DNA of 64,000 nt from Nevskia sp. (lineage in GTDB: Bacteria; Pseudomonadota; Gammaproteobacteria; Nevskiales; Nevskiaceae): positions 62,001-126,000 of the forward strand of contig NZ_JAKFUM010000007.1 in NCBI RefSeq assembly GCF_021732705.1, in the 5' to 3' direction. Shown here in pieces: positions 11,969-29,511 of the stretch (within the stretch, counting starts at the first letter, position 1; each line of letters begins with the position of its first letter). A model generated the notes under the pieces. The model saw nothing but the letters and a program-made list of their open reading frames with translations. It had not been told where the DNA came from and searched no databases. Made by a program: the position numbers and the translations under genes.

Positions 11969-12772
11969 TCAGAAGCCGAGTTCCGCCTGTCCGCCGGCGG
12001 CCGGAACGCGGAACAGGTCGCAGCGCGGCGTGAATCGTGGCCGGTCCAAGCCGAGCCTGCGGCAGGCCAGACGGTAGCGTTGGGCAATCAGATCGGCGAA
12101 GGCGCCCTCGCCTTTCATCCGCGTGCCGAAGCCCGAATCGTAATCCTTGCCGCCGCGGCTCTGATTGATCAGGCTCATGACGTGTGCGGCCTTCAGTGGC
12201 GCATGCGTTTGAAGCCAGTCCCGGAACAGGTCCTTCACCTCGTGCGGCAGCCGCAGCAGCACGTAGCTGGCGGAGGTTGCACCGGCATCGCGGCCGGCTT
12301 CGAGCACGCGCTCGAGTTCGGCATCGTTCACGAACGGAATCACCGGCGAGAACATCACCCGCACCGGCACGCCGATGTCGGCCAGCTTGCGCATCACGCG
12401 CAGCCGCGCGTCCGGCGACGCCGCCCGCGGTTCGAGCGTCCGCTTCAGAGCCGGCTCGAGGGTCGTCAGCGTGATGCCGACCGTCACCAGCTGATCGCGC
12501 GCGAGATCGGCCAGCAGATCGAGGTCGCGCTCGATCAGCGTGCCCTTGGTGATGATGCCGACGGGATGCCGGAAGCGCGTCAGCACCTCGAGGATGCCGC
12601 GGGTCACCCGGTGCTGTTTCTCGATCGGCTGGTAGCAGTCGGTGTTGGCGCCGATCATCGTGAAGACCGGCCGGTAACTGCGCCGCCGAAGCTCGGCCTC
12701 CAGCACGTCGGCGGCGTTGGCCTTGACGAACAGCCGGGTCTCGAAATCGAGTCCGGCCGACAGGTTCAGATA
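11969..12772 (-). pseudogene. PA0069-family radical SAM protein, C-terminal part separated by island insertion
   Basis: The frame from the Tyr codon at 12772 down to the stop at 11969 begins YLNLSAGLDFETRLFVKAN and continues through GIITKGTLIERDLDLLADLA and MFSPVIPFVND, the C-terminal three quarters of a PA0069-family radical SAM protein (function unknown, related to spore-photoproduct-lyase-like proteins). The N-terminal 88 codons with the iron-sulfur cysteines are at 29248-29511. Joining the two at the shared Tyr codon restores an uninterrupted 354-residue protein of normal family length. The frame continues upstream into the island to an ATG at 12931, so a fusion ORF without the cysteine motif could be translated, but it would not be an active enzyme. 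Confidence 0.92.
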
Positions 12773-12792
12773 TATGCATGCCTGACCAGACA

Positions 12793-12800
12793 TTATGCGA
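12793..12800 (+). repeat. TTATGCGA subterminal motif, left island end
   Basis: This octamer lies about 20 bases inside the left island boundary and is repeated exactly near the right boundary (29146-29153), with further TTATGC copies there. The neighbouring left-end bases TTCAG (12765-12769) and CTGACC (12782-12787) form an imperfect inverted pair around the junction. These are candidate recombinase-binding sequences. Confidence 0.4.
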
Positions 12801-12835
12801 CGGAGCTTGGAGGTTGCGTTTCGACCTAAGATCCG

Positions 12836-14233: not shown

Positions 14234-16208
14234 ATTTCATTCAAACGGTGTTATCGCCTGCTCATACCCCAACCAATCTCATCGAAGCTTCGATTTCAAT
14301 GATCTTTGGAAAGGAGCACCAAACGAAGTTGCAAAAGGGCAAGCACGCTGGAAAGGTAAATTTAGCGGTCGCCCCGAGCTCGCCGAACAAATATGGCCTG
14401 TCCTAACCTCTTACCTAAATGGTAAATCACCCGGCATTTGCGAAAGTGCTAGGACTGCTTTGCGCAGTCTATTTCGATTTCTCGACGCCTACGAAGAACG
14501 AGGTTGGCCGTCAATAAAGAAGATCGACGATCTCCCACCCGCATTTTCCACACTCTGGTTGCGTCCACCAACGCAGGCTTGGCCTGTACCAGATGGCCAG
14601 GCATACAGAATGGCGGGGCGAATCTTGAGATCTACATGGCAAAACAATGTCGGCCAGTCTCGAATATGGCTCTGGGAGCCGTTTCCAAAAGCCGACATAA
14701 CGTCAACAAAAGATCTACCGTCTGAGCAGGAGATTAAGACGGCCATGCACAGCTTGAAGATCGAGGCCCGCAACATATTTGATCGCTGGGAAGATGCCGA
14801 TCGCCTTGCAGCAATAGGTCGAAACCTCCTTCAAGCATCAAGAAACGGGCGCGGCAAGCTAATTCGAGGCATCGCACCGACAACGCTGGCAGATGCACAC
14901 GCCACTTACCGTGCCATTATTAATGAAACGCGGTCTCCGCTTCCCAATATCGGCAACCTTCGTAGAGCGCTTGGATTCAAAACAGACGCAAAAAACAATT
15001 ATCCTCGTTGGTGGCCGCGGTATCCAGCCGGTCATCGAAACGCCGGTAAGAATATTTCACTCAACGAGCTTCAGGATGGGCTGTATCCCAATGCGAATGA
15101 TATCGCATGCTTAGCAGTTCTTTACATGGCACGGACTGGATGGAACGAAGCGACAGTCGCATCGCTTGACGTAAGCGGCGCTCACTGGGCAACACCACAC
15201 GGGGAGACCGCAAGCTCGAAGCTGTGGATGATTACGGCATGGAAAGAAAGATCAAGGGAATTTCAATGGACCGTAAGTTTGGAGAAAACAACGACTGGCC
15301 CGTTTCAAATAGTTAAAAGACTTCGAGATCGAACTGCAGTACTTCGTGAACTCGTCAAAAGCGACCCTTCGCGATCATTACAACCCAAGATTGCGGAACG
15401 ATCACCTTGGATTGCCGCCGACAGCACCGGCAAAGGGAGCGTAATAACTCTGGGAGGCCGAGTTTGCGTGTGGTGGCAACAACATGTGCATGCGCATAAC
15501 CTCCAAGCAGCCGAACATCGGAAAATACCTGAATCAATGACCGCAAGCGATTGGAGAGATATTTATGCTTCATACGTTTTCGCGGATTCTAGGTATAGCT
15601 GGGTAATCGTCCAATGGGCACTTGGCCATAAGCATATATCATCGACGCGACACTACCTTCGTAATCGCCTCTGGCGTCACGCCAGCGAACGCAAGCTCAA
15701 TAGGCTAGTAACGGTCCTCATTGATGGCATCGAAATAAACGAACGGGTAGACGCGGTAATCTTGCGTGCGAAAGTAGAGTTTGATTTTGATCCATCCGAA
15801 TCTGATCTATGCCGTCTAGCCGCTCATCGACGAGTCATCGCGGAAAGCGAAATTACTTACTCGGGCCATATTTGCAGCGACTTGACGCATCCTCCCGCCG
15901 AAATTGACCCAGGCAATCCTCGCGATGGCTCGATGAACTGCCGTTCGGGAGAACGATGTGCCGGTTGCCCATCAGGGCGAGCTGTCGACGGAAGCGCGTT
16001 AGCGCGCAGGGCCGCGGAACTTACTTGGCTTCAACGACAAACGACCGGCCTTGTTTGGGCTGAATCCCACTACGCAGCAGATCTCGAAGTTCTTAACGCA
16101 AGCTTGAAGCAATGGGATGTTAGTCAGGTGAATAAGTGGATGGAATACTGGCGCGCAGAGATCGCTTCGGGTAGGCACAAAGTCATACGTTTCGGAGCAA
16201 AGCAGTGA
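14226..16208 (+). CDS. ginB: Divergent tyrosine recombinase, second gin gene (GinB-like)
   Basis: About 660 residues. The C-terminal recombinase fold is recognisable (ALGHKHISSTRHYLRNR with candidate Tyr477), but other catalytic positions differ from the usual pattern. Where Arg I is expected the sequence reads TGWNEATVASL (Asn307), and the HxxR box reads SDWRDIYAS (His replaced by Ser, Arg kept). A Cys cluster near the C terminus (NCRSGERCAGC) suggests a zinc-binding segment. This could be a structural partner of the other two recombinases rather than an independent catalyst. The ATG at 14226 overlaps the end of ginA in ATGAATAA; an in-frame GTG at 14199 is less likely. Confidence 0.82.
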   Translation: MNKFHSNGVIACSYPNQSHRSFDFNDLWKGAPNEVAKGQARWKGKFSGRPELAEQIWPVLTSYLNGKSPGICESARTALRSLFRFLDAYEERGWPSIKKIDDLPPAFSTLWLRPPTQAWPVPDGQAYRMAGRILRSTWQNNVGQSRIWLWEPFPKADITSTKDLPSEQEIKTAMHSLKIEARNIFDRWEDADRLAAIGRNLLQASRNGRGKLIRGIAPTTLADAHATYRAIINETRSPLPNIGNLRRALGFKTDAKNNYPRWWPRYPAGHRNAGKNISLNELQDGLYPNANDIACLAVLYMARTGWNEATVASLDVSGAHWATPHGETASSKLWMITAWKERSREFQWTVSLEKTTTGPFQIVKRLRDRTAVLRELVKSDPSRSLQPKIAERSPWIAADSTGKGSVITLGGRVCVWWQQHVHAHNLQAAEHRKIPESMTASDWRDIYASYVFADSRYSWVIVQWALGHKHISSTRHYLRNRLWRHASERKLNRLVTVLIDGIEINERVDAVILRAKVEFDFDPSESDLCRLAAHRRVIAESEITYSGHICSDLTHPPAEIDPGNPRDGSMNCRSGERCAGCPSGRAVDGSALARRAAELTWLQRQTTGLVWAESHYAADLEVLNASLKQWDVSQVNKWMEYWRAEIASGRHKVIRFGAKQ

Positions 16209-18253
16209 GCGCAATGCAAAGGGTTAATGCTATTCATCCAGACCTTTTGCACCGGCGTGATCACTGTTTGGCAACGAACTTTGATCTATTTGCTATTCAA
16301 CATGCAAGTCCACGGGAACTTCTGTCAACTCAGACTATGCTTGGCTATGGCGACCGTTGGGGAGTATGGGAAGTCCCGCTGACTTGGTTGCCACCGACAT
16401 TCAGGACTCCTGCAGGCCATACCGTTTCTATTGACACTTCAACCGATCTTGGTTGTCGAATGTGGACTGAGGTACTTCGATTCATGTTGCTTTGCTCTCT
16501 CGTTTGCGGCCGAAAAGGCAGACCTGACAAAGCAACTACGGTTATATACAACGGAAAATCTGCTCTGAGATTGCTTCCGTTACTTTCCACAAACTTAACT
16601 GCGCAGAGCAGTTCTTGGTGGGGCTATTTAACCGATTGCCAAATTATCTCCGTCCTGGGCCGAAAAGGGACCGACATTGCTACTCGACTGCGCGGCCTAC
16701 ATCACCGTGGCTTTCTCTCGGAATCACCGAGGAAGCGGACATTTGATGAAAATTCAATAGAACGTAATCGATTCGGCGAGTCCGCTCCAGAAAACATGGT
16801 AAATGATCCAGACGAGTATCAGCCTCTGCCTGACGAGTTCGTGGCACAGTGCGGGCGACGGGTACTTTGGTTTATTACTAATATTGGTCCGACGCTTTTG
16901 GATTGCGTCGACGCATGCCTACGTGTGAAGGCACCACCAGATCGTTTTTATCACTCTGACCGAGGCGGAAGAACTGCAAGGAATACAGAGCAGCTTGTCA
17001 TTAAAGCACGAGGACAGTTGATATCTGAATGGGTATGGATTGACTTCCAAGGTACACCAATTCAGGAATTGACTTTTGATTTGGTAATGAAGAGGACTAT
17101 ATCGAGGAATGTTTTTACAAAGTTTTCTTGGCCGCCCCGCTCTTGGATGGAGGTAATAAGGCTCTGCAAAATTCTTCAAGCATGCCATGCGTGGATTCTT
17201 CTTCTTGCAAGCGGACCACGTGTGTCAACACTATTGAGTTACACGAGTAGTTCGTATACTGAATCGTTTGGCGTTGCAAGAGTTGAAGCTCATCTATACA
17301 AAACGCAACAAGCTATATCGGGTCGGCTTCGTGATTGGCCAGCACCACCACGTGTCGCGCAAGCGCTCAAACAACAGATCCGTCTTGCAGCACTGGCGAG
17401 AACAATGTCGGACCCTAACAGCGTGCAAGACGACGATAGACAAATATGGCTGATGCTTAGAAGCAGCCGTTTGAGTCGATTAGGTGATCCGCTTGCAGGG
17501 CTTAATAAAGATCTGGACGGGTTAGTTCATACGTTTAAACTTGCCCACCTTCTCGACGGTCGCAGACTTCACTCGCACAGATTCAGAAAAACTCTTGCGC
17601 GAATTATTGCTTTGGCGCTCACGGATGCACAGTTGATATTGATGGATTGTTTTGGTCACGATGACCCTCAAATGACCCTCGGATACATGACGGCGGACAA
17701 AGCAATCATTGGCGATGCTCTTAGAATGCAGAGAGAACTGGTAGTTCTTATGGCACGTGATGCCATCCTTAGTCCAGATGAGCTTGGTGGCCCTGTTGCC
17801 AGTAAGGTACGTGAGGCCAAAGCCTCTTTTCTTCGGGTACGCCGGAAGTCTTGTCTTGATCCTAACGACGCTTTTGAGCTCGCAGAATCATTGACTGCTG
17901 ATGGCCGCACGTGGGCCATCGTAATGCCGGGCGTCATTTGTACATTGCCGATGGGTATTACTGGTCCATGCGGACTACGGCAAGGGGGACGAGATCCCGG
18001 ACACTGTCAATCAGGTTGCGGGCATCAACTTTTGCTTGCCCGACATAAGACGGAATGCCACGACACGGTTGAATTTATCGTTGAGCAACTTCAACGCGCA
18101 GTTGATATTGACTCAATCACGGTTACGATGTGGCAAGGACAACTTCGAAATTGGCTATATCGATGGGATGAGGTCTATCAGGCCTGGGCCGATCATCCCA
18201 TGGTTATCCGGTTTGGAGATCCCGCAGTATTAATCGGGGGAGCAACTAAATGA
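16205..18253 (+). CDS. ginC: Tyrosine recombinase, third gin gene (GinC-like)
   Basis: About 682 residues with a complete tyrosine-recombinase active site: Arg339 in SGPRVSTLL, the HxxR box HRFRKTLAR (His458), FGHDDPQMT and the nucleophile Tyr494 in TLGYMTAD. A C-terminal Cys/His-rich stretch (CTLPMGITGPCG ... CQSGCGH) may bind zinc. The GTG start at 16205 overlaps the ginB TGA; an ATG three codons later is the alternative. Codon use is AT-rich like ginA and ginB. The large size and conserved order with neighbours fit the GInt module better than the shorter recombinases of RIT elements. Confidence 0.85.
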   Translation: MSAMQRVNAIHPDLLHRRDHCLATNFDLFAIQHASPRELLSTQTMLGYGDRWGVWEVPLTWLPPTFRTPAGHTVSIDTSTDLGCRMWTEVLRFMLLCSLVCGRKGRPDKATTVIYNGKSALRLLPLLSTNLTAQSSSWWGYLTDCQIISVLGRKGTDIATRLRGLHHRGFLSESPRKRTFDENSIERNRFGESAPENMVNDPDEYQPLPDEFVAQCGRRVLWFITNIGPTLLDCVDACLRVKAPPDRFYHSDRGGRTARNTEQLVIKARGQLISEWVWIDFQGTPIQELTFDLVMKRTISRNVFTKFSWPPRSWMEVIRLCKILQACHAWILLLASGPRVSTLLSYTSSSYTESFGVARVEAHLYKTQQAISGRLRDWPAPPRVAQALKQQIRLAALARTMSDPNSVQDDDRQIWLMLRSSRLSRLGDPLAGLNKDLDGLVHTFKLAHLLDGRRLHSHRFRKTLARIIALALTDAQLILMDCFGHDDPQMTLGYMTADKAIIGDALRMQRELVVLMARDAILSPDELGGPVASKVREAKASFLRVRRKSCLDPNDAFELAESLTADGRTWAIVMPGVICTLPMGITGPCGLRQGGRDPGHCQSGCGHQLLLARHKTECHDTVEFIVEQLQRAVDIDSITVTMWQGQLRNWLYRWDEVYQAWADHPMVIRFGDPAVLIGGATK

Positions 18254-18744
18254 GCGAAAAGCGTGATCCTCTCAAAGATTATGCTAAATCTCGAACCAAA
18301 ACTGTCCTAGCGCGGATTCATACAGCGAAATCGGTGATCGAGCTAGACATCGAGCAGAATGAAGGGGTCTATCCGTACAACGGCGGACGCTTATCGGCAG
18401 CTGAACTTTGCCGGCGGGCGGGTGTGCATGAGGTAACTCTTCATGGTCCTACTCACAAAAGCACGACCCTTAGATCTGTGCACACATGGTTGAAAGAAGT
18501 CAGTCTCCGCCTTATTACAGGGAAGCGTGTGGTTCGTCAAAGAGTAACCGAGCGTGCTGATTATTGGCATCAGCGGTTCAAAGCGAGCTCGGACTGGGTC
18601 CACCGTTATCATATTGAGCAAGCGAAGCAAATAGAGCTATTGACCACCGCACATGCTCGTATCAAAGAGCTTGAGACCGAGGTCCTTTTACTCAAGAAGC
18701 AGTTTGTCGGTGGCAAAGTTGTACCAATCAACCGGGTTAAGTAA
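18250..18744 (+). CDS. ginD: Small HTH/coiled-coil protein, fourth gin gene (GinD-like)
   Basis: A 164-residue basic protein. The middle segment GGRLSAAELCRRAGVHEVTLH looks like a helix-turn-helix, and the C-terminal third (IEQAKQIELLTTAHARIKEL) is predicted coiled coil. It resembles in size and layout the small accessory protein TnpC of Tn554-type elements and GinD of GInts, so a DNA-binding accessory role in recombination is inferred. The ATG overlaps the ginC stop by four bases (ATGA), completing a four-gene translationally coupled operon. Confidence 0.78.
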   Translation: MSEKRDPLKDYAKSRTKTVLARIHTAKSVIELDIEQNEGVYPYNGGRLSAAELCRRAGVHEVTLHGPTHKSTTLRSVHTWLKEVSLRLITGKRVVRQRVTERADYWHQRFKASSDWVHRYHIEQAKQIELLTTAHARIKELETEVLLLKKQFVGGKVVPINRVK

Positions 18745-18801
18745 TTGGTCGCTAATTTTCATGCTTTGTATCCCAGGCTCCGCAGAAGAACGACTGTCGC
18801 T

Positions 18802-19170
18802 CTATCGATTTTGTCCCAAGATTTTCGATAAATGACGAACTCGCATCGCCTCCGTAACCAACTGGTTGGAGCGAACGTCCCACAGTTCTTTCGACAGCCA
18901 TAGTGCTAGGTTTCGATCTTCAATGTCTACGCCGAAGATTCGATCAATCATTGCCGGCCATACCACCGAGGAAACACGCGCCATTCCCAGTTTCAACGAT
19001 CCAACCTCGGCGATGACAGCGATCTCATTGGTACGCAGCAGGCCGTACATAGACCATACGATTTCGGGATATTCCTTATCTTTAAAGTCCGATCCGTAGT
19101 CACTGGCCGCCTCGTCAATGAGTGCGGTGCGGACTCGCACTGCGATTTCTTCCGGAGACTCATTGCTCAC
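18802..19170 (-). CDS. Hypothetical protein, last gene of C-box-flanked operon
   Basis: A 122-residue acidic protein of unknown family, beginning MSNESPEEIAVRVRTALIDE. No signal peptide or membrane segment is seen, and there is a tryptophan-rich helical pattern (WSMYGLLRT, ALWLSKELW). It is the third gene of a short minus-strand operon: its ATG overlaps the preceding stop in ATGA. The operon faces away from the controller-protein gene at 19737. I cannot assign a function; a toxin, immunity or restriction accessory role would fit the location but is not shown by the sequence. Confidence 0.6.
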   Translation of the reverse strand: MSNESPEEIAVRVRTALIDEAASDYGSDFKDKEYPEIVWSMYGLLRTNEIAVIAEVGSLKLGMARVSSVVWPAMIDRIFGVDIEDRNLALWLSKELWDVRSNQLVTEAMRVRHLSKILGQNR

Positions 19171-19532
19171 GGCCGAATCGCTGCATCTGGTCCAAGGTAG
19201 CCTTTACGCCGACGGTAGTGCTCTGCATGGGTGTCGAGAAATGCCTTCATCGTCTCGCGGTACTGCAGCACCTCGGCTGGAAGCACAAGTGACAGCTCTT
19301 GAGCGATCGCTACCGCATATTTGAGCTGCTTTTCGGTAGGCGGCAGCAACTCTCCTTCGAGCAAAGCGGTCACCAAATCGACGATGCGCCTCGACAAATC
19401 AACCCGCCCCCGTTCGGCTGCTGCTTGTGGCTCAGCCTTGCCGATGATCTGAAGCAGGCGTTCTTCGATGTGCCCATCGAAGCGGAGAGCCAAGCAAATT
19501 TCAGAATCGTCATATGTCAATCGAAAGCACAC
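19167..19532 (-). CDS. Hypothetical protein, middle gene of C-box-flanked operon
   Basis: A 121-residue soluble protein of unknown family, with a predicted helical C-terminal half (RRIVDLVTALLEGELL and EVLQYRETMKAFLDTHAEHY). The GTG start at 19532 has GAGGG nine bases upstream and lies inside the end of a preceding small ORF (23-base overlap). It overlaps the downstream gene by four bases. Either the small ORF and this gene are separate coupled genes, or they are one gene split by a frameshift near 19515-19530; the sequence alone does not decide. Confidence 0.58.
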   Translation of the reverse strand: MCFRLTYDDSEICLALRFDGHIEERLLQIIGKAEPQAAAERGRVDLSRRIVDLVTALLEGELLPPTEKQLKYAVAIAQELSLVLPAEVLQYRETMKAFLDTHAEHYRRRKGYLGPDAAIRP

Positions 19533-19680
19533 GCGCTACCCTCAGTCTTGTCGAAAGTTCACGAAGCACGCACCCGCCGTGCTCCTCTCGCAATTCGGAC
19601 TGTCCGCTGTGCGTCGAGAAACTGAGCTTCCCGCCCTCAAACTTACCGCCGAGGGACAAAGCAGGCCCAGGTATCCCCAT
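19510..19680 (-). CDS. Possible small protein, first ORF of C-box-flanked operon
   Basis: A 56-codon ORF starting ATG at 19680, reading MGIPGPALSLGGKFEGG and ending in RVLSIDI. It starts only ten bases from the C-box-like palindrome, so a transcript from the TATAGT within that palindrome would be nearly leaderless. It may be a real leader gene, or the N-terminal part of the following protein if a frameshift is present. No family was recognised. Confidence 0.35.
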   Translation of the reverse strand: MGIPGPALSLGGKFEGGKLSFSTHSGQSELREEHGGCVLRELSTRLRVARVLSIDI

Positions 19681-19689
19681 AGCGTCGCA

Positions 19690-19714
19690 GACTATAGTCC
19701 GTAGATCAATAGTC
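19690..19714. promoter_or_regulatory. C-box-like operator of the controller protein
   Basis: The 10-bp palindrome GACTATAGTC is followed by CGT and then by a second half-site, GATCAATAGTC. The two AGTC half-sites start 15 bases apart, and AGTCCGT is present, the arrangement known for C-protein operators such as PvuII (GACTNNNAGTC class). It lies 23 bases before the controller ATG and 10 bases before a divergent ATG. The palindrome also contains TATAGT on both strands, a possible -10 for both directions. Confidence 0.65.
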
Positions 19715-19736
19715 GTCGGCGAGTCACTGTCGGCGG

Positions 19737-19988
19737 ATGCCGGCCAAGTCAGAGAAACGCAACCCTGTTGCCATCGCGTTCGGTGATGTGCTTCGAGCCG
19801 CCCGGGCGCGGGTTGGCGTTTCACAGGAAGCCCTGGGCCTTGCTTGTGGTATGGATCGCACCTATGTGTCCCTGCTTGAGCGCGGGGAACGCCAGCCCAC
19901 CCTGAGTACTCTTTTTGCCCTGTCACAGCAGCTAGGTGTGGCGGCTGAGGTGTTGGTCGCCCGTACTGGCGAGGCGCTGTCGAAATAG
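19737..19988 (+). CDS. Controller (C) protein of restriction-modification type, XRE-family HTH
   Basis: An 83-residue HTH_3 protein: FGDVLRAARARVGVSQEALG, GMDRTYVSLLERGERQPTL and LFALSQQLGVAAEVL match the compact single-domain C proteins that time restriction-enzyme expression (usually 75-85 residues). The operator upstream also matches. What is odd is that no restriction gene follows in the same direction; the plus strand downstream holds only a decayed ORF. The obvious targets are the divergent unknown genes at 18802-19680, with the methyltransferase operon 9 kb away as another possibility. Confidence 0.8.
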   Translation: MPAKSEKRNPVAIAFGDVLRAARARVGVSQEALGLACGMDRTYVSLLERGERQPTLSTLFALSQQLGVAAEVLVARTGEALSK

Positions 19989-20059
19989 GGCTAGGAGGGT
20001 CGTGGCGGGGACTGGCAACTCAGAACGCCCATCTCAAGTCGCCGCCGTTACGGTGCGAC

Positions 20060-20250
20060 AGCGCGGTCACGCGATACCAACTTGCTCGTCAACCTCATCA
20101 CGGACATGGCATCCGGCGGGATCGAGCCGCCCAAAACCGACGATGGCAAAGGTCATGCGCCATGGCCTACACCGCAAGGGTAGCTACAAAAGTTGCAGTG
20201 CAACGGATGAGCCCCGAGAAGGGGCAGAATTCGCCGCCGGAGCAGTGCTG
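20060..20250 (+). pseudogene. Decayed ORF resembling a small island-associated basic protein
   Basis: One frame reads TNLLVNLITDMASGG ending in KTDDGK, and after frame changes the same strand reads KGSYKS and RMSPEKG. Together these resemble a common hypothetical family (RDTNQLAKLIVD ... ALGRKGGLKGG ... LSPEKRSEIARKAAAARW) that has suffered several frameshifts. It fills the gap between the controller gene and the converging ATPase gene. The resemblance is from memory and the fragment is short, so confidence is limited. Confidence 0.3.
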
Positions 20251-20267
20251 TTTGCAACACCACAGGC

Positions 20268-22874
20268 TCAGGACAGTTTCGCGGCACCTTGACGCTGCCG
20301 AAGGCTCTCTGACCATGCGGCCAGCATTTCAATCTCGGCAGAAAGTGCTTCCGGTCTCGGCAAAGGACGATTTAACGTGGCGGCGGCGCTATGCAACAGT
20401 TCGGAGCACCGACCATATGCATCGCGCATTCCCTCGCAGTCGGGAACAGTAATCGCGGTCAGCTTTACCAAGCCAGGGGTCTTCACCTCGTTGGAAAGGC
20501 GCCGAATGACATGACCTACGGCTTCTTCGACTGCGATCTCCCACGTATCGCGTAATGATGTTGCGATGGTTTTGACAGACTTTCGCCACTCGTCGTGATT
20601 GCCTTGGTCAAAGTGGTAGCGTTCACCGGCAAGCTGGTTGCTCAGGCTTGCGGTTATGTCATTGACCCGACGCGCTTTAAATGGCGGCTCGGTGCGGCAA
20701 AAGCCCGCCTTGTCAGCCCCCCGACTGATAGAACTAATCGCGACCAGCGGCTTGGGCTGAGCATCGTCTGCCGCACGATTCAGATCGTATAAGAATGCGA
20801 GGTCGTGAGTGAACACGATGACCTGGCGATGAGCGGCTTCGGCAACCAATCGCTTTGCCACTGCTTCCCTATGCATGTGGTCGAGCGATGAAACGGGATC
20901 GTCAAAGACGATGCCTGACTTGTTTTCGGTGGTGGTGAGTTCAGCCATGAAGGCTGCCAAGGCGACGCATCGATGTTCACCTTCGCTCAAGACCTGTCCT
21001 ACCGCAGCGTTAGGCTTTCGTGTGAGGGCAACCTTAAATCTGGGAATGCCCTGCACGCTATTTTGCTGGCGAAGCTCCACGGCAAGGCCAGCAATTTCGA
21101 AGCTCGCCGCCTCACGAGCGAACTGTGTACGAAGAGCGTCCGTCACCAAAGCCTGAGCGATCTCGGTGCTCTTGGTGGTAACGCGGTTGGTAGCAGTGTC
21201 CCGTAGCGCGGCCTCAAGCCGGGCGATTCGTCTATGGCGTTCGATTTCGGCAAGAACGTCGGCTTTCATGCCACAAAGCCAATTCCGATCCGTAAGCTCG
21301 GACTTTTCGGCAAGCAAGGCGGCACGAGCTGGAGAACCAGCCTCCGCAGCTAGGGCAGCCGCCCGAGTCTCAATGCCCGCTGCTTGTTCGACAAGCGCAT
21401 TTCGCGGATATCCCCCAACAGCGGCGCCAAGAACGGCACCTAGCTTTGCGTGGCACCGTCTGATCTTGCGATGACGCCACAGTGCACATAGGGTCGCCCT
21501 CCGAATCTCCATCGCTAAAGCGTCCTGACGCAGTTCATCGCGGACGGTCGCCACGATGCTCGCAAGCTCGACCAACGAAATCGCCCCACCCTCGAAAGTT
21601 GCCAACCTCGCGTCGTAAGCGACGCGCGCAGCCTCGGCACGTTGCTGACTATCGTTGCGCACGAAAGCCTCAAAGCGATTGAGACGATCAGCGGCGACGG
21701 GCGTCAAATGCTGCTGGCAAAGCACGCATACGCTGCCGGGGGCTGTTACGGGGAAGTGCAGTTCTGGATAGGCATCCGCATCAGAAAATGCTCGGGCGCT
21801 GTCCCATAGCGCCTGCCAAACCTCCGAGCCTATCTGCGGCAATGGTTCGTCGCGGAAAAGTGCATCGGAGGCGGCGCTTGCAGCTCGGCGCGCGGAATCG
21901 CTATCCACGGCAAGACGGTGCAGGTCATTAGCGGCTGCGTCACCAATTGACGCGAACAGCCGGTCCAAACTCGCAACGTATCCATCAACTTTGCCTTTCA
22001 ACGCCGAAAGCTGGCGCGCGGCACGAGCCGGATCACCTGCCAAATCCGCCGTCAGCTGAACCAATCGGTCTTGCTCTGATTGCGTGAGCGTGGTCAATAC
22101 TTCTAATGTCGCAGGAGCAGTACCGGCTGTAAGCCGAGACAGAAGCCTACCGACCGCTGTATCCCTGCCGCATGCCGGTGTACTTATTGCTTCGGGAGTT
22201 TGGTCCTTTATCTGCTCGATCTCGGCTGCCAGCTTGTCCCTGACCGATCTACAAAGCTGCGCCAGCCCGCCAAGCAGCTTGAGCGGTGCCGGTGTGTAAG
22301 CCACATCATTCGTTTCGTCTACGTGGACGTTCGCGGTGCGGGCATCGAACACGCTGATGCCTGAAAGCGCAGTATCAGCAGGCTGTCCGAGCTGCCAAGC
22401 GCAAGTACGGTTCTGACCGTTGACCGAGTATTCGATCGTTGCGCTCGGGGTGCCAGGCGAAACGTCATATATGTCGGCTGCAATTTCCTCAGTTCGTCCG
22501 GACATGCGCGCGCGGCACACCTTTTTGAGAATCCGCGCGTAGCCAGATTTTCCCGATCCGTTGTCCCCGTAGATGATCGTTAATCCAAGCCGGTGAAGCG
22601 TAAGCCGTTGGTCGGGAGCAAGGGCGTTGACGTTTCTCACCCCATGCACCTGACGTAGGTTAACTACACCCTGATCTCGGTGCTGGCCGCGAAGGTGCGC
22701 CGCTTGTAGTGGAACCGCCTGGCGGTCACCCTTGCAAATGAAAGCTAGTTCGTCGGTCTCGCCCGGCTGCAGAGTTGCTTGCGTTGCCAGTCGGCGCAAC
22801 GCGTCTCGCTGCCAGCCGGGGCCGTCAGCAGACCAAACGAGGATGTTCGCGAGCGCCTCGGCTTCCGTAGTCAT
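20268..22874 (-). CDS. RloC/PrrC-like ABC ATPase, candidate anticodon nuclease
   Basis: An 868-residue SMC/ABC-type ATPase: Walker A GDNGSGKSG (about residue 107), signature LSEGEHR (about 628), Walker B VFDDPVSSLDH (about 656) and H-loop FTHDLAF. A CVLC motif (about 382) lies between coiled-coil arms, as in a zinc hook. After the ATPase core the C-terminal domain has RDTWE (Arg775, Glu779) and LLHS (His828). This is an Arg-x3-Glu ... His pattern like the catalytic triad of the anticodon nucleases PrrC and RloC. The distance from Glu to His is longer than in those proteins, so nuclease activity is inferred, not shown. It is the last gene of the four-gene operon, 4 bases after the GIY-YIG gene. 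Confidence 0.68.
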   Translation of the reverse strand: MTTEAEALANILVWSADGPGWQRDALRRLATQATLQPGETDELAFICKGDRQAVPLQAAHLRGQHRDQGVVNLRQVHGVRNVNALAPDQRLTLHRLGLTIIYGDNGSGKSGYARILKKVCRARMSGRTEEIAADIYDVSPGTPSATIEYSVNGQNRTCAWQLGQPADTALSGISVFDARTANVHVDETNDVAYTPAPLKLLGGLAQLCRSVRDKLAAEIEQIKDQTPEAISTPACGRDTAVGRLLSRLTAGTAPATLEVLTTLTQSEQDRLVQLTADLAGDPARAARQLSALKGKVDGYVASLDRLFASIGDAAANDLHRLAVDSDSARRAASAASDALFRDEPLPQIGSEVWQALWDSARAFSDADAYPELHFPVTAPGSVCVLCQQHLTPVAADRLNRFEAFVRNDSQQRAEAARVAYDARLATFEGGAISLVELASIVATVRDELRQDALAMEIRRATLCALWRHRKIRRCHAKLGAVLGAAVGGYPRNALVEQAAGIETRAAALAAEAGSPARAALLAEKSELTDRNWLCGMKADVLAEIERHRRIARLEAALRDTATNRVTTKSTEIAQALVTDALRTQFAREAASFEIAGLAVELRQQNSVQGIPRFKVALTRKPNAAVGQVLSEGEHRCVALAAFMAELTTTENKSGIVFDDPVSSLDHMHREAVAKRLVAEAAHRQVIVFTHDLAFLYDLNRAADDAQPKPLVAISSISRGADKAGFCRTEPPFKARRVNDITASLSNQLAGERYHFDQGNHDEWRKSVKTIATSLRDTWEIAVEEAVGHVIRRLSNEVKTPGLVKLTAITVPDCEGMRDAYGRCSELLHSAAATLNRPLPRPEALSAEIEMLAAWSESLRQRQGAAKLS

Positions 22875-22878
22875 ATGT

Positions 22879-24063
22879 CTATGCAGTCACCAGCTTTGCA
22901 GCCTTGGGATCGTAGAGATATCCCGTGATGCTGCCATCCTTGATGCGCGCCACGGCCTCGTCGATGACGAACAGCGGAACGAGAAACCACTCTTCGGGCT
23001 GCACGGGGTGACCGAAGCGGTCATTGATGGTGATGTTCAGGCGCGCAGGTGCGAACAGCCTGTGGAACAGGTTCTCCATCCGGGTGCGGTTGATGCCCGC
23101 GAGCTTATAAGTCGCCACCACTTCGACCTTCGCGAGCAAGTATGTGGACTCGTGTTCGGCGTTGGCAATGCGCGTCTCTACCTTTCCGCCGGTCACGCCC
23201 ATCTTGTGGATGACGTCGCGGTGCTGCGCGACGTAGGGATGATCAGACAGAGAGCGCAGGACGTAGATCGTCCCGCTTTCGACATCATCGGCCTCAAGCT
23301 CGCCGCCGAAGGAGAGTTGCCCGCTCTCAGGTGAGGCCAGCCGCCGTGCGGCGGAGTCGTTGTAGAACGCGCGCTGGAGCGAGCGCAACAGCAGATTGCT
23401 CTCGGTGCCGTTGGAGAAGATGAGGCGCAGGCGGCGGTCCACCTCCCCCGCGGTCGTCTTCAGTGGCTCGCCGACCTCGGCGACGTAGAGCGTAAGGCCA
23501 TCGAGAACGAAAAAGTCGCCGGCCTCGATCGCGCGGCGGCCCGCCTCGATGGACTGGGATTGGCGCAAGCCAGTCTTGACTTCCGTTTGCACGCGCTCGA
23601 ACAAGGGGCGGAAGATTTCAAAGTCCTCGCAGGGCTTGCGATCCGCGATCTCTTCGGCTGCACGCTTTTCGGCGCTGGTACGGACGTGGCGCAGAACCGT
23701 GATGTCGTCTGCGTCGGCCACGTCCGCCAGCTCGGCAGCCAGGTCGTCGATGTCGATCGAATCGTCCGCCGAAGCGGCTACGGTTGGCGCGCCAGCAAGC
23801 AAGTCCTGATGGTCTAACGGCTCAAGTAAGGCGCGGCAATCCGGGAGCGCGCGTAGACGGTCGAGCCGTACGGCATAGAGGCGCTCGAATATGTCGCGGT
23901 CTTCGCCATGCCCCGGCGCACGCCCGTGCTCCTCGGTGAAACGTTGAATTTCCTCGAAGCCAGCGATGACGCGCTCCTCGCCGGCCGGGCGTCCATTTTT
24001 CTTCTCAGGCGGTGCGAACTCGGCCAGCTCTGCCGCGAGGTCGTCAAGATCGGAGTTACTCAT
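22879..24063 (-). CDS. GIY-YIG nuclease family protein (T5orf172-like)
   Basis: A 394-residue protein with an acidic N-terminal region (SDLDDLAAELAEFAPP) and a C-terminal GIY-YIG domain starting about residue 267: GTIYVLRSLSDHPYV, then HKMGVTGGKVETRIANAE with the Arg, and NRTRMENLFHRLFAPAR with the metal-binding Glu. These domains cut DNA. It probably provides cleavage for the adjacent methyltransferase/helicase pair. The ATG at 24063 lies in ATGAGTAA overlapping the helicase stop by eight bases; a longer frame upstream runs inside the helicase and is rejected. Confidence 0.82.
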   Translation of the reverse strand: MSNSDLDDLAAELAEFAPPEKKNGRPAGEERVIAGFEEIQRFTEEHGRAPGHGEDRDIFERLYAVRLDRLRALPDCRALLEPLDHQDLLAGAPTVAASADDSIDIDDLAAELADVADADDITVLRHVRTSAEKRAAEEIADRKPCEDFEIFRPLFERVQTEVKTGLRQSQSIEAGRRAIEAGDFFVLDGLTLYVAEVGEPLKTTAGEVDRRLRLIFSNGTESNLLLRSLQRAFYNDSAARRLASPESGQLSFGGELEADDVESGTIYVLRSLSDHPYVAQHRDVIHKMGVTGGKVETRIANAEHESTYLLAKVEVVATYKLAGINRTRMENLFHRLFAPARLNITINDRFGHPVQPEEWFLVPLFVIDEAVARIKDGSITGYLYDPKAAKLVTA

Positions 24064-26110
24064 AGCGTCCTTCCGCCCTGAAGCGCATGAACGCGGCCGC
24101 GCCTTCGGCAAGGTGCTTTTCCCAGGCATCCTGTGCGGTAACCGATGGGGTACGCCCACGCTCGCGTTTGAACTCCACCGCGCGCTTGGCGATCACTTTT
24201 GCATCTTCGGGTGTGATTGACGTGCGCTTGGCAGAAATGGCCGCCGCGACCTGCTTCAAGCTGTCCTCGCTCATGGTCTTGGCAAGGATGGCGTAGGCCT
24301 CCCCAAAGGGGTTGATGCGATCGATGAGATCAATGTCCAACTCGCGCACGTCCATCGCGAAGCGGCGCACACCGTCGATCAGGGCGGTGTTGGGCGAGCC
24401 GTCACTCTCGCCTTCGGTGACGAGCCGCTTGGCCTGCTGGGTGAGATTGAGGGCGGCAACGGCATGCTGGCGAACGGCCTCCTGATCTTCGGCGTCTAGA
24501 TCCGGATATTTGTCCTTGATGATCTTGCCCATGCGAACCTGCGTAAGCTCCTCAGGCACCAGCTCCTCATCGAACAGGCCGCGTTCTATAGTCGGCTTGT
24601 CCTGAACGAAAGCAGCGATGACTTCGTTCAGGTCTTCCTGACAGATGCGTGCCGCCTCCTTGCTCTTGGGCTCGGCGAGGCCCTTGATCTCAATCTGGTA
24701 CGCCCCTGTCTGCTCGTTGACACCGACATTGCAGCGGTCCGGGTCGTATCCCCCCTCGCCATAGTTAAATCCCGGCGTCGGGCCGCTATCGGGGTTCTTG
24801 GGTTTGAACTCGAAGCGCGGAGCAAGAACCTGCTCCATCAGCAAGCTCGCCGCGATCGCCTTCAACGTGTCGTTGACGGCCTCGGCAACAGCTTCCTCGG
24901 CTGCATCCGGCTCGGCGATCAAGTTGGTGAACCTCGCGCGGGTCTTACCAGGCGCGTCACGAGTAGCGCGGCCGATGATCTGCACGATCTCGGTCAAACT
25001 GGCGCGGTAGCCCACGGTCAGTGCGTGCTCGCACCAAATCCAGTCGAAACCTTCCTTCGCCATGCCAAGCGCGATGATGATGTCTACATGGTCCCGGTTG
25101 TTCTTCTGCGCCGGGTCTTTCAGAGCCGCGGACACCCGGTCCCGCTTCGCTCCATCGTCATCGACCAGATCGGCGATGCGCAGCATGTGCCCATCAGGGC
25201 GCCTGACGAGCTGGAAGCCAGTGGCGGCGTCGATGCCCTGCCACTCCCCCAGAGCCTCGATGATGTGTTCCACCTCCCTCACCTTGTCCTTCGTACTCTC
25301 GCGCGAATTGACGTTGGGGATGTGGATGATGGTTTTCTCTGCAGGATTGAGGACATTGAGGATGTCGTCGATGTAAGGCCCGCTGTAGAAGAAATAGCCG
25401 ATGTCGAGTTGCTTGAGGTACTCGTAGCCGTTCAGTTGCTCGTAGTACGTGTAAGTGACGGTATCGAACTTCGACTCATCCTGAGGCGCGAGCACGGCCT
25501 CGGCGTCGCCGCGGAAGTAGGAGCCAGTCATAGCGACGATGTGGGTCTTGCCACGTGCAAAGAACTGCCCGAGGTGCAAGCCGAGCTTGTTGTCCGGGCT
25601 CGCTGAAACGTGGTGGAACTCGTCAACCGCGATCAGGCGATCGTCGAACGCTTCTACGCCGTAGACATCGACTGCGAAGCGGAATGTCGCGTGGGTGCAG
25701 ACCAGCACCTTGTCATCGCCTTGGAGGAACGCGCCCAGCGCCTTGATTTTGCCGCCGTTGTCGTTGCCCGGTGCGTTGCACAGGTTCCACTTAGGTTCAA
25801 CGTGCCAGTCGGACCAGAAGCCATACTTCGACAGCGGCTCGTCGTTGAAGCTGGCCCCGATGGACTTCTCGGGCACAACGATGATGGCCTGTTTGATGCC
25901 CTGGTTCTTGAGCTTGTCGAGTGCCACGAACATCAGCGCACGGCTCTTACCCGAGGCGGGTGGCGACTTGATGAGCAGGTACTGCTCTCCACGCTTCTCG
26001 TAGGCACGCTCCTGCATGGGGCGCATGCCAAGGGTATTGGCCTTAGCCGATGCGCCATTGCGAGCGTAGGTGACGGAAACGGTCGGTACAGCCTTGGTAC
26101 TGTCGCTCAT
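24056..26110 (-). CDS. DEAD/DEAH-box (superfamily 2) helicase of restriction-like system
   Basis: A 684-residue SF2 helicase related to type I/III restriction translocases: motif I KSPPASGKSRAL (about residue 55), motif II VDEFHHV with DEFH instead of DEAD (about 165), motif III AMTGSYF, and motif VI QIIGRATRDAPGKTR (about 375). No nuclease motif is seen in the protein itself. It sits between the methyltransferase (ATGA overlap) and the GIY-YIG gene (eight-base overlap), suggesting that translocation and cutting are split between subunits. Confidence 0.87.
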   Translation of the reverse strand: MSDSTKAVPTVSVTYARNGASAKANTLGMRPMQERAYEKRGEQYLLIKSPPASGKSRALMFVALDKLKNQGIKQAIIVVPEKSIGASFNDEPLSKYGFWSDWHVEPKWNLCNAPGNDNGGKIKALGAFLQGDDKVLVCTHATFRFAVDVYGVEAFDDRLIAVDEFHHVSASPDNKLGLHLGQFFARGKTHIVAMTGSYFRGDAEAVLAPQDESKFDTVTYTYYEQLNGYEYLKQLDIGYFFYSGPYIDDILNVLNPAEKTIIHIPNVNSRESTKDKVREVEHIIEALGEWQGIDAATGFQLVRRPDGHMLRIADLVDDDGAKRDRVSAALKDPAQKNNRDHVDIIIALGMAKEGFDWIWCEHALTVGYRASLTEIVQIIGRATRDAPGKTRARFTNLIAEPDAAEEAVAEAVNDTLKAIAASLLMEQVLAPRFEFKPKNPDSGPTPGFNYGEGGYDPDRCNVGVNEQTGAYQIEIKGLAEPKSKEAARICQEDLNEVIAAFVQDKPTIERGLFDEELVPEELTQVRMGKIIKDKYPDLDAEDQEAVRQHAVAALNLTQQAKRLVTEGESDGSPNTALIDGVRRFAMDVRELDIDLIDRINPFGEAYAILAKTMSEDSLKQVAAAISAKRTSITPEDAKVIAKRAVEFKRERGRTPSVTAQDAWEKHLAEGAAAFMRFRAEGRYE

Positions 26111-28884
26111 GCATTGGCTCCCGCCTTGCGCTTCTTGCCCTTGGCCGGTGCAGCCGAAGCGGTCATCTTGGTGTAGAGGTCAAACAGCTTTTCCAGCCGC
26201 TCGGTATCATTCTTGAAGCGGCGGCCGATGTAAATGCGCTCTAGTACTTCGTCGTTGCGATCATGCGCCATCCGTAAGTCGGCGGGCATGGCATCGGGAT
26301 CGTAGAGTTCGGCGATAGTCGCCGGGAAGTGGCGCTCCCGCGAAAGTATGATTTCCTCGGCGCAGCGAGTGAGGTCGGCTTTGTTCTTTTCGGTCAGCTC
26401 AGGCAAGGGAAAAGTGTTGTAGCAAGTAGCAGAGGTATACCTAATACGATCTTCGAGCTTGCCTGAAACTGCCTCTACCCAACAGATATGTAGTGACGAA
26501 GAGACGACTGAAAACACATAGAGTTGTGGGTTCTGAACAATGTTTGCCGCATTATTGACGACCACCGTATTATCTAAATAGCCGGCTGTTACGTATTCAC
26601 GTTTCTCCGAGAATACTGTTGGTACGATGATCTGCGGTGTGTTGCGCTTATTTATCCAAGCGAACTTGTGCGGGCGCGATACTGCCGTTTTGGCTCGCGT
26701 TCCACCGGCGATTCTGTACGCTTTTACGGCCGCGACTCGACGGGCAATTTCTTCGCATTGCAATGCATCATCGAGGTGTCGGTCTTCGATCCAGAGACAC
26801 CAGCGTAGGGTGCCTTTAATAAACTCCCCGGAGCCCATGTAAGGCAGCACATATTTGGCAAATCGGCCCGACTGCATTTGGATGATCTGGTCCCGCGCAT
26901 GGCGATCCAGAATCAGAAACCCGCCGTCCAATGCGCCGCTACCATCTGTAATCTCAGCATCAAATCCGAGGGTCTTCTTAGCGCCTTCCACGAACACATT
27001 TTTCGCGTTCAATAAATAGGCATTGATATTCGTTACCTGCCTGCTGTGAAGCTGTCCTTCGCTATTCGTTTCGTAGAGCTTGCGTTCACCAATGATCTTA
27101 GTCGCAAGGCCAACGACGACCACAGAAACACCAGCATTATGGCTCGCTAGGTTTGACCATTTGAATGAGGTGTGTGCAAAAGCAATTTCTTGGCCGGTCT
27201 CGAAAATGAGGGGCCACAGAATCGAAGCTTGAAGACCTTGGCAAACCGAGTTTGTCATCACAAACGCACTCGCGGCGGCAACGTAGCGGCTGTAATCGGA
27301 AGCCTTGATTACCCACCCACAGACGTAATCTAGTGCCTTCCACGTCGTTGTTCGATGGCTAAAGAGATCACTCAATTCCTGCGTTTGCTCCTTGGTTCGC
27401 CAATTGCTGCCTTTGTAAGGAGGATTTCCGCAGATATACGTTTCGCCGCCTTCATTTTCGAAGTCGATCTCTGCTTGATCTAAAGGAGTACCGAACAGGT
27501 CATCTGCAAGCACCTTCACGCTTCTCCCCGTGGGAGGGCAAATTGCCAACCAGTCGAGCCGTAAAGCGTTACCGCAGGTGATCCAGTTCTCGTTGCGCAG
27601 GGGAAGAAAAACGGCCAGCGCCAACTTTTTACCCCGGTACAGGACGTCGCACTGGTACTCGGCGATGACCAGCGCAAGGCGGGCGATCTCTGCGGGGAAG
27701 TCGCGCAGCTCGATACCGCGAAAATTCGTGAGCGGGATCAATGAGCGTATATCTGGTTCGCCGCGCCGACGGTTGATCTCGGCCTCGATTGCGCGCATTT
27801 CCTTGTAGGCTATGACCAGGAAATTGCCAGAACCGCAGGCCGGGTCGAAGACCCTGATCTTGGCGATGCGCTTGCGCAGGTTTAGCAACATTCGGACGTT
27901 ATCGCCTGCTTCCTCCAGCTTCTCCCGCAGATCGTCGAGGAACAGCGGATTCAGCACCTTCAGGATGTTGGGGACACTCGTGTAGTGCATCCCCAGTTCG
28001 CCGCGCTCCTCGTCCTCGGTAACGGCCTGGATCATCGAACCGAAGATGTCGGGGTTGATCAGGGTCCAGTCCAGCCCGCCGACGTGCACCAGGTAGGATC
28101 GAGCGATTCTGCTGAATCGAGGCACCTCTTCACTGCCTGAGAATAACTGCCCATTAACGTAGGGGAAATCGGTAGCCCAACGAGGAATCCCCGCAGTGGC
28201 CCGGTCCTCGCGCTCAATGTTCATAGCTCGGAACAGTGTGGCGATCACCTCATGCGTGTTGGATGCATCCTTGGCGCTCATCGTCGCCACAGTGTCGGTG
28301 AAGGCGTCGCTGAAGATGTCGGTGTCCTCGGCGAAGAAGCAGAAGATCAGCCGCGCCATGAACTTGTTCATGTCGTGGCGGCGCTCTGACATGCCCCACT
28401 CGGGATTGTCTTTCAGTAGTTCGACATACAGGCGGTTCAGGCGGCTGGTGGCCCGGATGTCGAAAGCGTTTTCGCTGATTTGCCGGACGGTATTGATACC
28501 CGCCAGCGGCAGGAAGAAGCCAAAGTGGTCGGGAAAGTCTTTGAAAGCACAGGCGACGGTCTCGCCGCTGGACAGGTCTTCTGCCTCGAAGTCCGCACCG
28601 TCCGTGGCGAGGATGAACTTGGCCTTGGCCTTGGCCGTCGCCGGGCTGGCCTTGAGGGCGGCCAGCGTCTGCGTGACCCGCCCTGCGTCGCAGGTCAGGA
28701 TGTGGATGTTGTTGGTTTGGAGAACACCGCCGAGGTCAGACTTGTTCGACGCCCCCGCGCGGAGACGTTTGATGGTCGTCTCCTTGTTACCGAATGCTTC
28801 AAGGAATCCGTAGGGGAACTCAGCGGACTCAAAAGGCCGATCCGCGAGGTCGGTGATGGCTTGCTCGATCTCAACTGCGTTCAC
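26107..28884 (-). CDS. MmeI/YeeA-like class I DNA (adenine) methyltransferase
   Basis: About 925 residues. Motif I FDPACGSGNFLV (about 345) and motif IV GNPPYKGSN (about 485) mark an N6-adenine methyltransferase. The N-terminal part (GASNKSDLGGVLQ, FKDFPDHFGFFLPLAGI) and the target-recognition and C-terminal regions match the MmeI/YeeA group. Unlike MmeI itself I see no N-terminal D...ExK nuclease motif, so it is probably modification-only. The GTG at 28884 has AAGGA seven bases upstream and begins VNAVEIEQAI as in relatives; an in-frame ATG at 28917 would add 11 residues. First gene of a four-gene operon. Confidence 0.85.
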   Translation of the reverse strand: MNAVEIEQAITDLADRPFESAEFPYGFLEAFGNKETTIKRLRAGASNKSDLGGVLQTNNIHILTCDAGRVTQTLAALKASPATAKAKAKFILATDGADFEAEDLSSGETVACAFKDFPDHFGFFLPLAGINTVRQISENAFDIRATSRLNRLYVELLKDNPEWGMSERRHDMNKFMARLIFCFFAEDTDIFSDAFTDTVATMSAKDASNTHEVIATLFRAMNIEREDRATAGIPRWATDFPYVNGQLFSGSEEVPRFSRIARSYLVHVGGLDWTLINPDIFGSMIQAVTEDEERGELGMHYTSVPNILKVLNPLFLDDLREKLEEAGDNVRMLLNLRKRIAKIRVFDPACGSGNFLVIAYKEMRAIEAEINRRRGEPDIRSLIPLTNFRGIELRDFPAEIARLALVIAEYQCDVLYRGKKLALAVFLPLRNENWITCGNALRLDWLAICPPTGRSVKVLADDLFGTPLDQAEIDFENEGGETYICGNPPYKGSNWRTKEQTQELSDLFSHRTTTWKALDYVCGWVIKASDYSRYVAAASAFVMTNSVCQGLQASILWPLIFETGQEIAFAHTSFKWSNLASHNAGVSVVVVGLATKIIGERKLYETNSEGQLHSRQVTNINAYLLNAKNVFVEGAKKTLGFDAEITDGSGALDGGFLILDRHARDQIIQMQSGRFAKYVLPYMGSGEFIKGTLRWCLWIEDRHLDDALQCEEIARRVAAVKAYRIAGGTRAKTAVSRPHKFAWINKRNTPQIIVPTVFSEKREYVTAGYLDNTVVVNNAANIVQNPQLYVFSVVSSSLHICWVEAVSGKLEDRIRYTSATCYNTFPLPELTEKNKADLTRCAEEIILSRERHFPATIAELYDPDAMPADLRMAHDRNDEVLERIYIGRRFKNDTERLEKLFDLYTKMTASAAPAKGKKRKAGANA

Positions 28885-28989
28885 TTGCTTTTCCTTACGC
28901 TTTCGGGGTCGGGCCATCCTAAAAAAGGCCAATGCCTACATGCGCGGTATTTGACCAGATGTTGCTCTTTGAATTCTCCCTGAAGGGAT

Positions 28990-29011
28990 GTGACTCGGTG
29001 CACTAAGTCAC
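28990..29011. promoter_or_regulatory. Inverted repeat GTGACT-N10-AGTCAC upstream of the methyltransferase
   Basis: GTGACT (28990-28995) and AGTCAC (29006-29011) form a perfect six-base inverted repeat about 105 bases upstream of the methyltransferase GTG. The GACT/AGTC halves are those of the C-box at 19690-19714, but the spacing differs. It may be an operator or simply a hairpin. Nothing else is recognisable in the gap between the methyltransferase and the right island end (28885-29247). Confidence 0.35.
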
Positions 29012-29145
29012 GAGGCCTCCTTGCTAAACCAGCAATAGCTCAATGGTTCCGCTAGAAGATCCCCAAAAGTCCCGGGCAATGACCTGCTTGGTGTCTGCCT
29101 TTCAGTGGTACGAGGAAGAACGTCAACGCTGTTCGTCGTCAAGTC

Positions 29146-29215
29146 TTATGCGAGGATGACCCAATGGCATAAGGCGACTGGCCATTATGCCAAGCTGATG
29201 TCGTTTTTTTATGCG
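29146..29215. repeat. Cluster of TTATGC motifs at the right island end
   Basis: TTATGCGA occurs at 29146-29153, TTATGCCA at 29185-29192, its reverse complement TGGCATAA at 29165-29172 and TTATGCG at 29209-29215. The left end has TTATGCGA at 12793-12800. Between this cluster and the junction, CGCCAT and ATGGCG (29230-29248) form an inverted pair around a seven-base spacer GTATTTA. The layout resembles arm-type plus core-type sites of a tyrosine-recombinase attachment region. Confidence 0.5.
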
Positions 29216-29247
29216 TGTCGAAGAACTCTCGCCATGTATTTAATGGC

Positions 29248-29511
29248 GTAGCCGTGGCTCGGCCGCGCATAGCAGTAGATGCAGCCGTGCTCGCAGCCCA
29301 GATACGGATTGATCGACTGGTCGAAGCCGATGTCCGGCGACTCGTTGCGGGTCAGGACCGATTTCGCCTGCACCGTCCGCACGATGGTCTCGAACGACGG
29401 CAGTGGTTCTTCTTCCCGCTGCCAGCCGTCGTCCACCTTCTCGATGCTGCGCGACTCGAAGCGGCCCTCGTCGTTCGAGCCGGCGCCGCGTCCCTTGCGC
29501 AGCACCGCCAT
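29248..29511 (-). pseudogene. PA0069-family radical SAM protein, N-terminal part
   Basis: The first 88 codons of the interrupted gene: MAVLRKGRGAGSNDEGRFES, then SPDIGFDQSINPYLGCEHGC with the CX3CX2C iron-sulfur motif (Cys73, Cys77, Cys80) and YARPSHGY at the junction. The frame then runs 12 codons into island DNA before a stop at 29209. The remainder of the gene is at 11969-12772. It starts 7 bases after the DUF427 gene, so it belonged to an operon with the M20 and DUF427 genes. As it stands, the fragment has the cluster-binding loop but no barrel. Confidence 0.93.

Follow-up and report, generated by a model that had tools for sequence, protein, structure and literature searches.

Could proteins of the RloC type stand guard over R-M enzymes in the way that PrrC does? 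In the PrrC-EcoprrI pair, which is similar in that a tRNA-cutting ATPase is coded with an R-M operon, PrrC guards a type Ic system (PMC2610378, PMC3874165). The question is posed by an operon of Nevskia sp. found in the window (the whole 64,000-nucleotide stretch of contig NZ_JAKFUM010000007.1 that was analysed), in which the gene of an RloC-like ATPase follows the three genes of a YeeABC cluster. YeeABC is common, with YeeB detected at E ≤ 1e-100 in 22 of the 398 genomes of the phylum and 12 of the 369 of the class (the window's own genome included in each) and in 264 plasmid records at E ≤ 1e-5, yet its role in defence is disputed. With its conserved dead nuclease domain, replaced TRD and coupled RloC-type effector, the window locus lends itself better to testing than the B. 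subtilis cluster.

A four-gene operon on an integrated island

The operon consists of four intact ORFs arranged head to tail on the minus strand (20268-28884; Table 1). The methyltransferase and helicase genes overlap by 4 nt (ATGA), the helicase and GIY-YIG genes by 8 nt, and a gap of 4 nt separates the GIY-YIG gene from that of the ATPase. An earlier note on this DNA had described a composite, restriction-like operon of four coupled genes on a mobile island, with the helicase and GIY-YIG functions in separate genes and an RloC-like ATPase, a candidate anticodon nuclease, in last position. The intact frames and tight junctions agree with the coupling, the Pfam assignments with the separate helicase and GIY-YIG genes, and the last protein has the layout described for RloC. 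The search against defence profiles proposed in the same note was run on all four proteins using PADLOC: the methyltransferase matched REase_MTase_IIG (902.7 bits) and the ATPase PDC-S06 (611.6 bits), both over the whole length, the helicase gave only a weak match to PbeA, and the GIY-YIG protein gave no match.

The mobile island claimed in the note was also recovered, as judged by the split radical-SAM gene, the G+C content (0.49-0.62 in the island versus ~0.65 outside) and the recombinase-like genes. An uninterrupted radical-SAM motif is present in three of the seven same-genus loci scanned (L169, L170, L172). Of the recombinase-like proteins, the first matches Phage_integrase, as does the third with a score under the curated cut-off; neither the middle one nor the 164-aa protein has a Pfam match. 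The third recombinase was absent from all 99 other relatives in which it was sought, and the second gave one weak plasmid match.

Table 1. Features of the operon and the surrounding island (window coordinates).
Feature	Position	Strand	Remarks
Radical-SAM gene, 3' part	11969..12770	-	
Integrated island carrying the operon	12771..29248	.	16.5 kb; splits radical-SAM gene
Three coupled recombinase-like genes (465, 669, 682 aa) and small gene (164 aa)	12836..18744	+	
Two small overlapping ORFs (122 and 121 aa)	18802-19532	-	No family matches
Small XRE-type helix-turn-helix protein	19737..19991	+	Outside the operon; read by eye from the sequence
RloC-like ABC ATPase, 868 aa	20268..22874	-	AAA_13 9.7e-17; SMC_N; PADLOC PDC-S06
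Candidate anticodon-nuclease triad of ATPase, R775-x3-E779-x48-H828	20391..20552	-	Alignment of 48 sequences
CxxC zinc-hook motif of ATPase, residues 383-386	21717..21728	-	C383 and C386 invariant (48/48)
YeeC-type GIY-YIG (T5orf172/MUG113) protein, 394 aa	22879..24063	-	Pfam MUG113 1e-11, T5orf172 1.2e-9
YeeB-type SF2 helicase, 684 aa	24056..26110	-	Pfam DEAD and ResIII
YeeA/DnmA-type N6-adenine DNA methyltransferase, MmeI family, 925 aa	26107..28884	-	Nuclease-dead N-domain, variable TRD
Radical-SAM gene, 5' part	29249..29511	-	

The YeeABC core

The locus was assigned to YeeABC by domains and gene order: an MmeI-family methyltransferase without a nuclease motif is followed by an SF2 helicase at +1 and a T5orf172/GIY-YIG protein at +2. 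DnmA(YeeA)-YeeB-YeeC has been described as a conserved cluster and a possible Type I-like R-M system (PMC7261158, PMC9973331). According to these reports, the clusters of Bacillus subtilis and relatives contain the three families found here in an identical order, including a methyltransferase of the MmeI family without an endonuclease motif and a T5orf172/GIY-YIG YeeC, and the B. subtilis cluster also adjoins DNA-mobility genes (PMC7261158, PMC9973331). Unlike them, the window has an RloC-like ATPase coupled 4 nt downstream of YeeC. The suggestion of the earlier note that the operon may be an undescribed defence type therefore does not apply to the three-gene core, for which it was ruled out by the YeeA/B/C literature; for an RloC-type gene beside YeeABC, no earlier report was found in a limited search of the open literature, and this pairing is apparently new.

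Conservation of the cluster was examined in 40 YeeB loci (the window, L013-L019, L021-L023, L146-L165 and L183-L191), with the fragments L009-L012, the regions L020 and L145 and the truncated G339 left outside. The methyltransferase, helicase and GIY-YIG genes have the same strand and order in all 39 other loci. Since the methyltransferase lies 0.8-7.1 kb away from the helicase in 16 of these 39 (for example L148, L150, L183 and L189), the trio is not always a tight operon.

The window methyltransferase contains all five MmeI Pfam domains, namely MmeI_N, MmeI_hel, MmeI_Mtase (E=2.5e-110), MmeI_TRD and MmeI_C, and its start, placed at the GTG at 28884 by the conserved MNAVEIE N-terminus, is the one given in the earlier note. 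It shares the methyltransferase/TRD architecture of MmeI, a Type IIL R-M enzyme (457 bits to structure 5hr4, with the alignment beginning at about residue 103, past the nuclease part). It differs from MmeI in having no fused D...ExK nuclease, and cutting and motor functions presumably reside in separate proteins. The nuclease residue pattern of MmeI is D...ExK. Between residues 40 and 135, the window protein has no D-x(6-20)-E-x-K string, as the earlier note had observed of the D...ExK nuclease; such a string occurs in 2 of the 21 aligned YeeA sequences (window included). These two strings (L149, L154) sit in different columns by eye and are therefore probably due to chance. The methyltransferase motif DPACGSG is present in the window protein and kept in 20/21 YeeA (L161 differs); NPPY, likewise present in the window, is found as NPPY/NPPF in 19/21 and as NPQF in 2/21.

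Comparison with nine YeeA homologs gave identities of 29-35% for the TRD and 74-94% for the N-domain. In the five nearest relatives (L013-L016, L146) the N-domain is 92-94%, the C-domain 85-88% and the helicase 92-95% identical to that of the window. On these alignments, the TRD is replaced with the partners and the dead N-domain held constant, a pattern typical of R-M specificity change. Since the dead N-domain is conserved beside a replaced TRD, it appears still to have a job, and we infer that it may act as an interface.

A DEFH box and a QIIGRATR motif were read in the helicase sequence, and the GIY-YIG hallmark residues (G, Y, K-x-G, R, E, EW) are intact in 20/20 YeeC proteins, the window's included. 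The dN/dS values against the window, calculated by the Nei-Gojobori method with synonymous sites partly saturated, were 0.04-0.07 for the helicase, 0.06-0.08 for the GIY-YIG protein and 0.12-0.14 for the ATPase; for these pairs, the low ratios indicate purifying selection on all three genes.

The RloC-like ATPase and its neighbourhoods

RloC has been defined as an ATPase into which a zinc-hook coiled coil is inserted, with a C-terminal R-x3-E-x36-52-H triad and a length of 658-897 aa (PMC2610378). The window ATPase, at 868 aa, contains Walker A, CxxC (383-386) within the coiled-coil insert, LSEGE, Walker B and the triad with an x48 spacing; the likeness is by this published rule. Among the 48 aligned sequences, the triad R is found in 48/48, E in 46/48 (D in 2) and H in 48/48. 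The string by itself is weak, since shuffling the C-terminal 163 aa produced R-x3-E-x36-52-H in 531 of 2000 cases. PrrC has roughly half the size of the window ATPase, has no zinc hook and is tied to type Ic systems, and the PADLOC PrrC profile matched the window ATPase with 17.5 bits over residues 645-694 only, not over the whole length.

The nucleases of RloC and PrrC have been placed in the HEPN superfamily (PMC3710099). The full ATPase model (pLDDT 86.5, pTM 0.58) has a Rad50/SMC head, with the best rows at Z ~20 over residues 70-737. The C-terminal domain modelled alone with AlphaFold (pLDDT 90.5, pTM 0.85) is a helical bundle, and its weak Foldseek matches, none with E<0.001, include HEPN 2hsb (E 0.075), 1o3u, 1wol and 3o10; the top rows from VIA-align are helical bundles other than HEPN. 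Some homologous ATPases are interrupted within the C-terminal nuclease part or a short way ahead of it: L013 (G047) has an in-frame stop after residue 669, L055 a frame break near 767-789 and L090 a gap at 789. Other breaks (L085, L112, L117) lie elsewhere in the protein, and thus no pattern is claimed for the interruptions.

To identify relatives, a genome scan with the ATPase was used, which returned at least 593 pattern matches and at least 286 relatives, of which the best 80 were used. The order methyltransferase-helicase-GIY-ATPase was found at six of these best 80 of at least 286 loci: L047 of Polycyclovorans (same genome as L016 and G040), L048 and L088 of Rhodoplanes (identical ATPases, methyltransferase in pieces), L049 of Hyphomicrobium, L054 of a Rhodobacteraceae MAG (methyltransferase truncated at the contig end) and L070 of Shimia (ATPase only 44% identical). 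At L080, the ATPase lies between the methyltransferase and the helicase. Together with the YeeB loci, the ATPase directly follows YeeC in six lineages besides the window (L013, L016/L047, L048/L088, L049, L054, L070), where it lies 35-296 bp away as measured from tblastn ends. The four genes thus co-occur elsewhere, although the earlier note had allowed that they might not. Within the family, a close ATPase is present in 3 of 58 genomes (its own, G047, which corresponds to L013, and G040, the genome of L047), all beside YeeABC. More distant ATPases (30-31%) occur in G051 and G042, and no YeeABC was found near that of G051.

Viewed from YeeB, the pairing is infrequent. The 39 other YeeB regions were searched by tblastn with two ATPases, and ten downstream genes were scanned with Pfam, nine of them also with PADLOC. 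In 3 of the 40 loci (window, L013, L016), YeeC is followed by an ATPase of the same kind as in the window, and L149 carries in this position an ATPase of another, distant PDC-S06 subfamily with CxxC and without R-x3-E-x36-52-H; the other 36 have no such ATPase in the slot. A weak ATPase match upstream of the methyltransferase at L161 was left out of the counts. The 3/40 frequency rules out the ATPase as an obligate fourth component and makes the fourth gene an optional accessory. In the neighbourhood conservation analysis suggested in the earlier note, the order recurs in six other lineages and the ATPase is present in few YeeB loci. Judged from these gene neighbourhoods, the YeeABC-ATPase pairing is recurrent but optional.

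Seventeen loci have ATPases with at least 60% identity (14 among the best 80 of at least 286, plus the window, L013 and L035). Within 5 kb, using a small neighbour panel at E 1e-8 that would miss other R-M gene types, 7 adjoin YeeABC, 5 another methyltransferase operon and 5 neither. The second group comprises L045 (N6_Mtase and specificity subunit), L055 (5860-9982: Eco57I-type methyltransferase, then a T5orf172 (GIY-YIG)/ResIII helicase fusion, then the RloC-like ATPase), L051 (Eco57I methyltransferase and helicase/GIY-YIG fusion, in pieces), L081 (inside a type III locus) and L035 (N6_N4 methyltransferase, on a plasmid). The fusion protein of L055 is a fused analogue of YeeB/YeeC. With this panel, no methyltransferase operon was seen by the ATPase at L046, L050, L052, L053 and L056, the first two having <2.1 kb upstream. 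Most of the less similar ATPase loci among the best 80 of at least 286 had no panel match. In the published survey, linkage of RloC to R-M is rare, with 8 of 72 RloC at loci of type I/III (PMC2610378), in contrast to the 12 of 17 close relatives here that adjoin methyltransferase operons.

In the ATPase tree, a quick tree with 15 of 48 forks open, the YeeABC label changes seven times, with at least four changes forced by well-supported branches; label clustering is weak (40/500 shuffles as low). The forced changes suggest repeated gains or losses of the pairing. The ATPases nearest that of the window (L035, L045, L081) all lie in other R-M loci, and the tree and neighbour counts together indicate that the gene moves between R-M systems.

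Other genes also occur in the position after YeeC: a Ppl-like ATPase with AlbA_2 (L146), Mrr-AAA/McrC (L150), an ATPase with McrC by record annotation (L023) and a GajA-like gene 296 bp off (L147). Such gene content is suggestive of a variable effector slot; against this, no same-strand gene comes after YeeC at many YeeB loci.

A possible backup nuclease and alternative readings

We consider it probable, from gene content and motifs, that the operon encodes a YeeABC Type I-like R-M system with an interchangeable backup anticodon nuclease of the RloC/PrrC type. The methyltransferase would mark one adenine at a TRD-defined, probably non-palindromic site, and YeeB, as helicase/translocase, and YeeC, as GIY-YIG nuclease, would probably dock on its dead N-domain and would jointly form a complex restricting unmarked DNA in a Type I-like manner. 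The Rad50-like ATPase with its C-terminal candidate nuclease domain would be held off in healthy cells; broken DNA or blocked restriction may release it, with tRNA cleavage and a stop of translation as the predicted result. By analogy with RloC and PrrC, tRNA cleavage would most likely be a second line behind R-M, and we infer that the two together may protect against phage. Several findings speak against this reading: the slot is empty of such an ATPase at 36/40 YeeB loci and holds a distant one with unsuitable triad spacing at L149, the methyltransferase is set apart from the helicase at 16 of 39 loci, the B. subtilis trio is reported not to restrict, the triad string is frequent in shuffles, the C-terminal helical bundle has best PDB matches that do not point specifically to HEPN, and the ATPase and YeeABC have differing histories.

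A possible, though less probable, explanation is that the last gene of the operon acts as a defence system of its own (RloC/PDC-S06), located next to YeeABC in a defence island but with no functional link to it. Close ATPases occur without YeeABC at 10 of the 17 loci, 36/40 YeeB loci have no such ATPase, the nearest ATPases belong to other R-M loci, and ten annotated plasmid regions around the ATPase show neither YeeB nor YeeC. Chance proximity is harder to reconcile with an ATPase on the same strand 4-296 bp after YeeC in the window and six lineages, with a pairing that arose or was lost repeatedly, and with the methyltransferase operons beside most close relatives. The three-gene core could itself be an R-M relic, with its methyltransferase serving as an orphan regulator of epigenetic type. 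This has been proposed for B. subtilis, where YeeABC is reported to have no restricting effect on plasmid uptake or on three phages (PMC7261158, PMC9973331). We consider a relic unlikely here, given the low dN/dS of the helicase and GIY-YIG genes, the intact catalytic residues, the TRD replacement with conserved partners and the mobile island. In addition, V. crassostreae is reported to become more sensitive to some phages when its dnmA and yeeB homologs are deleted, and YeeB and YeeC of B. subtilis to be without C-terminal stretches (PMC9973331). Weaker PADLOC matches, of the methyltransferase to DrmMI (105 bits), PglX and mad2 and of the ATPase to mad3, would be expected of a BREX, DISARM or MADS variant; these are partial, the whole-length matches go to REase_MTase_IIG and PDC-S06, and PglZ, BrxC/L and DrmA/B/C were not matched among the four operon proteins, so that membership was rejected as highly improbable.

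Beyond the backup-nuclease reading of this operon, we tentatively hypothesize, with considerable doubt, that a clade of RloC-type anticodon nucleases acts as a general guard shared among unrelated R-M classes by transfer from one to another (YeeABC, type I-like, type III, and Eco57I methyltransferase with GIY-YIG/helicase), silenced by the methyltransferase-motor complex of its host system and freed by phage inhibition. If so, PrrC logic would extend to many R-M types. Like the YeeABC trio, the R-M linkage of RloC-like proteins was already known: ABC-HEPN proteins of this kind have been published as neighbours of R-M genes, in some cases along with a Doc/Fic gene (PMC3710099). A Fic gene lies downstream of the RloC-like ATPase at L050.
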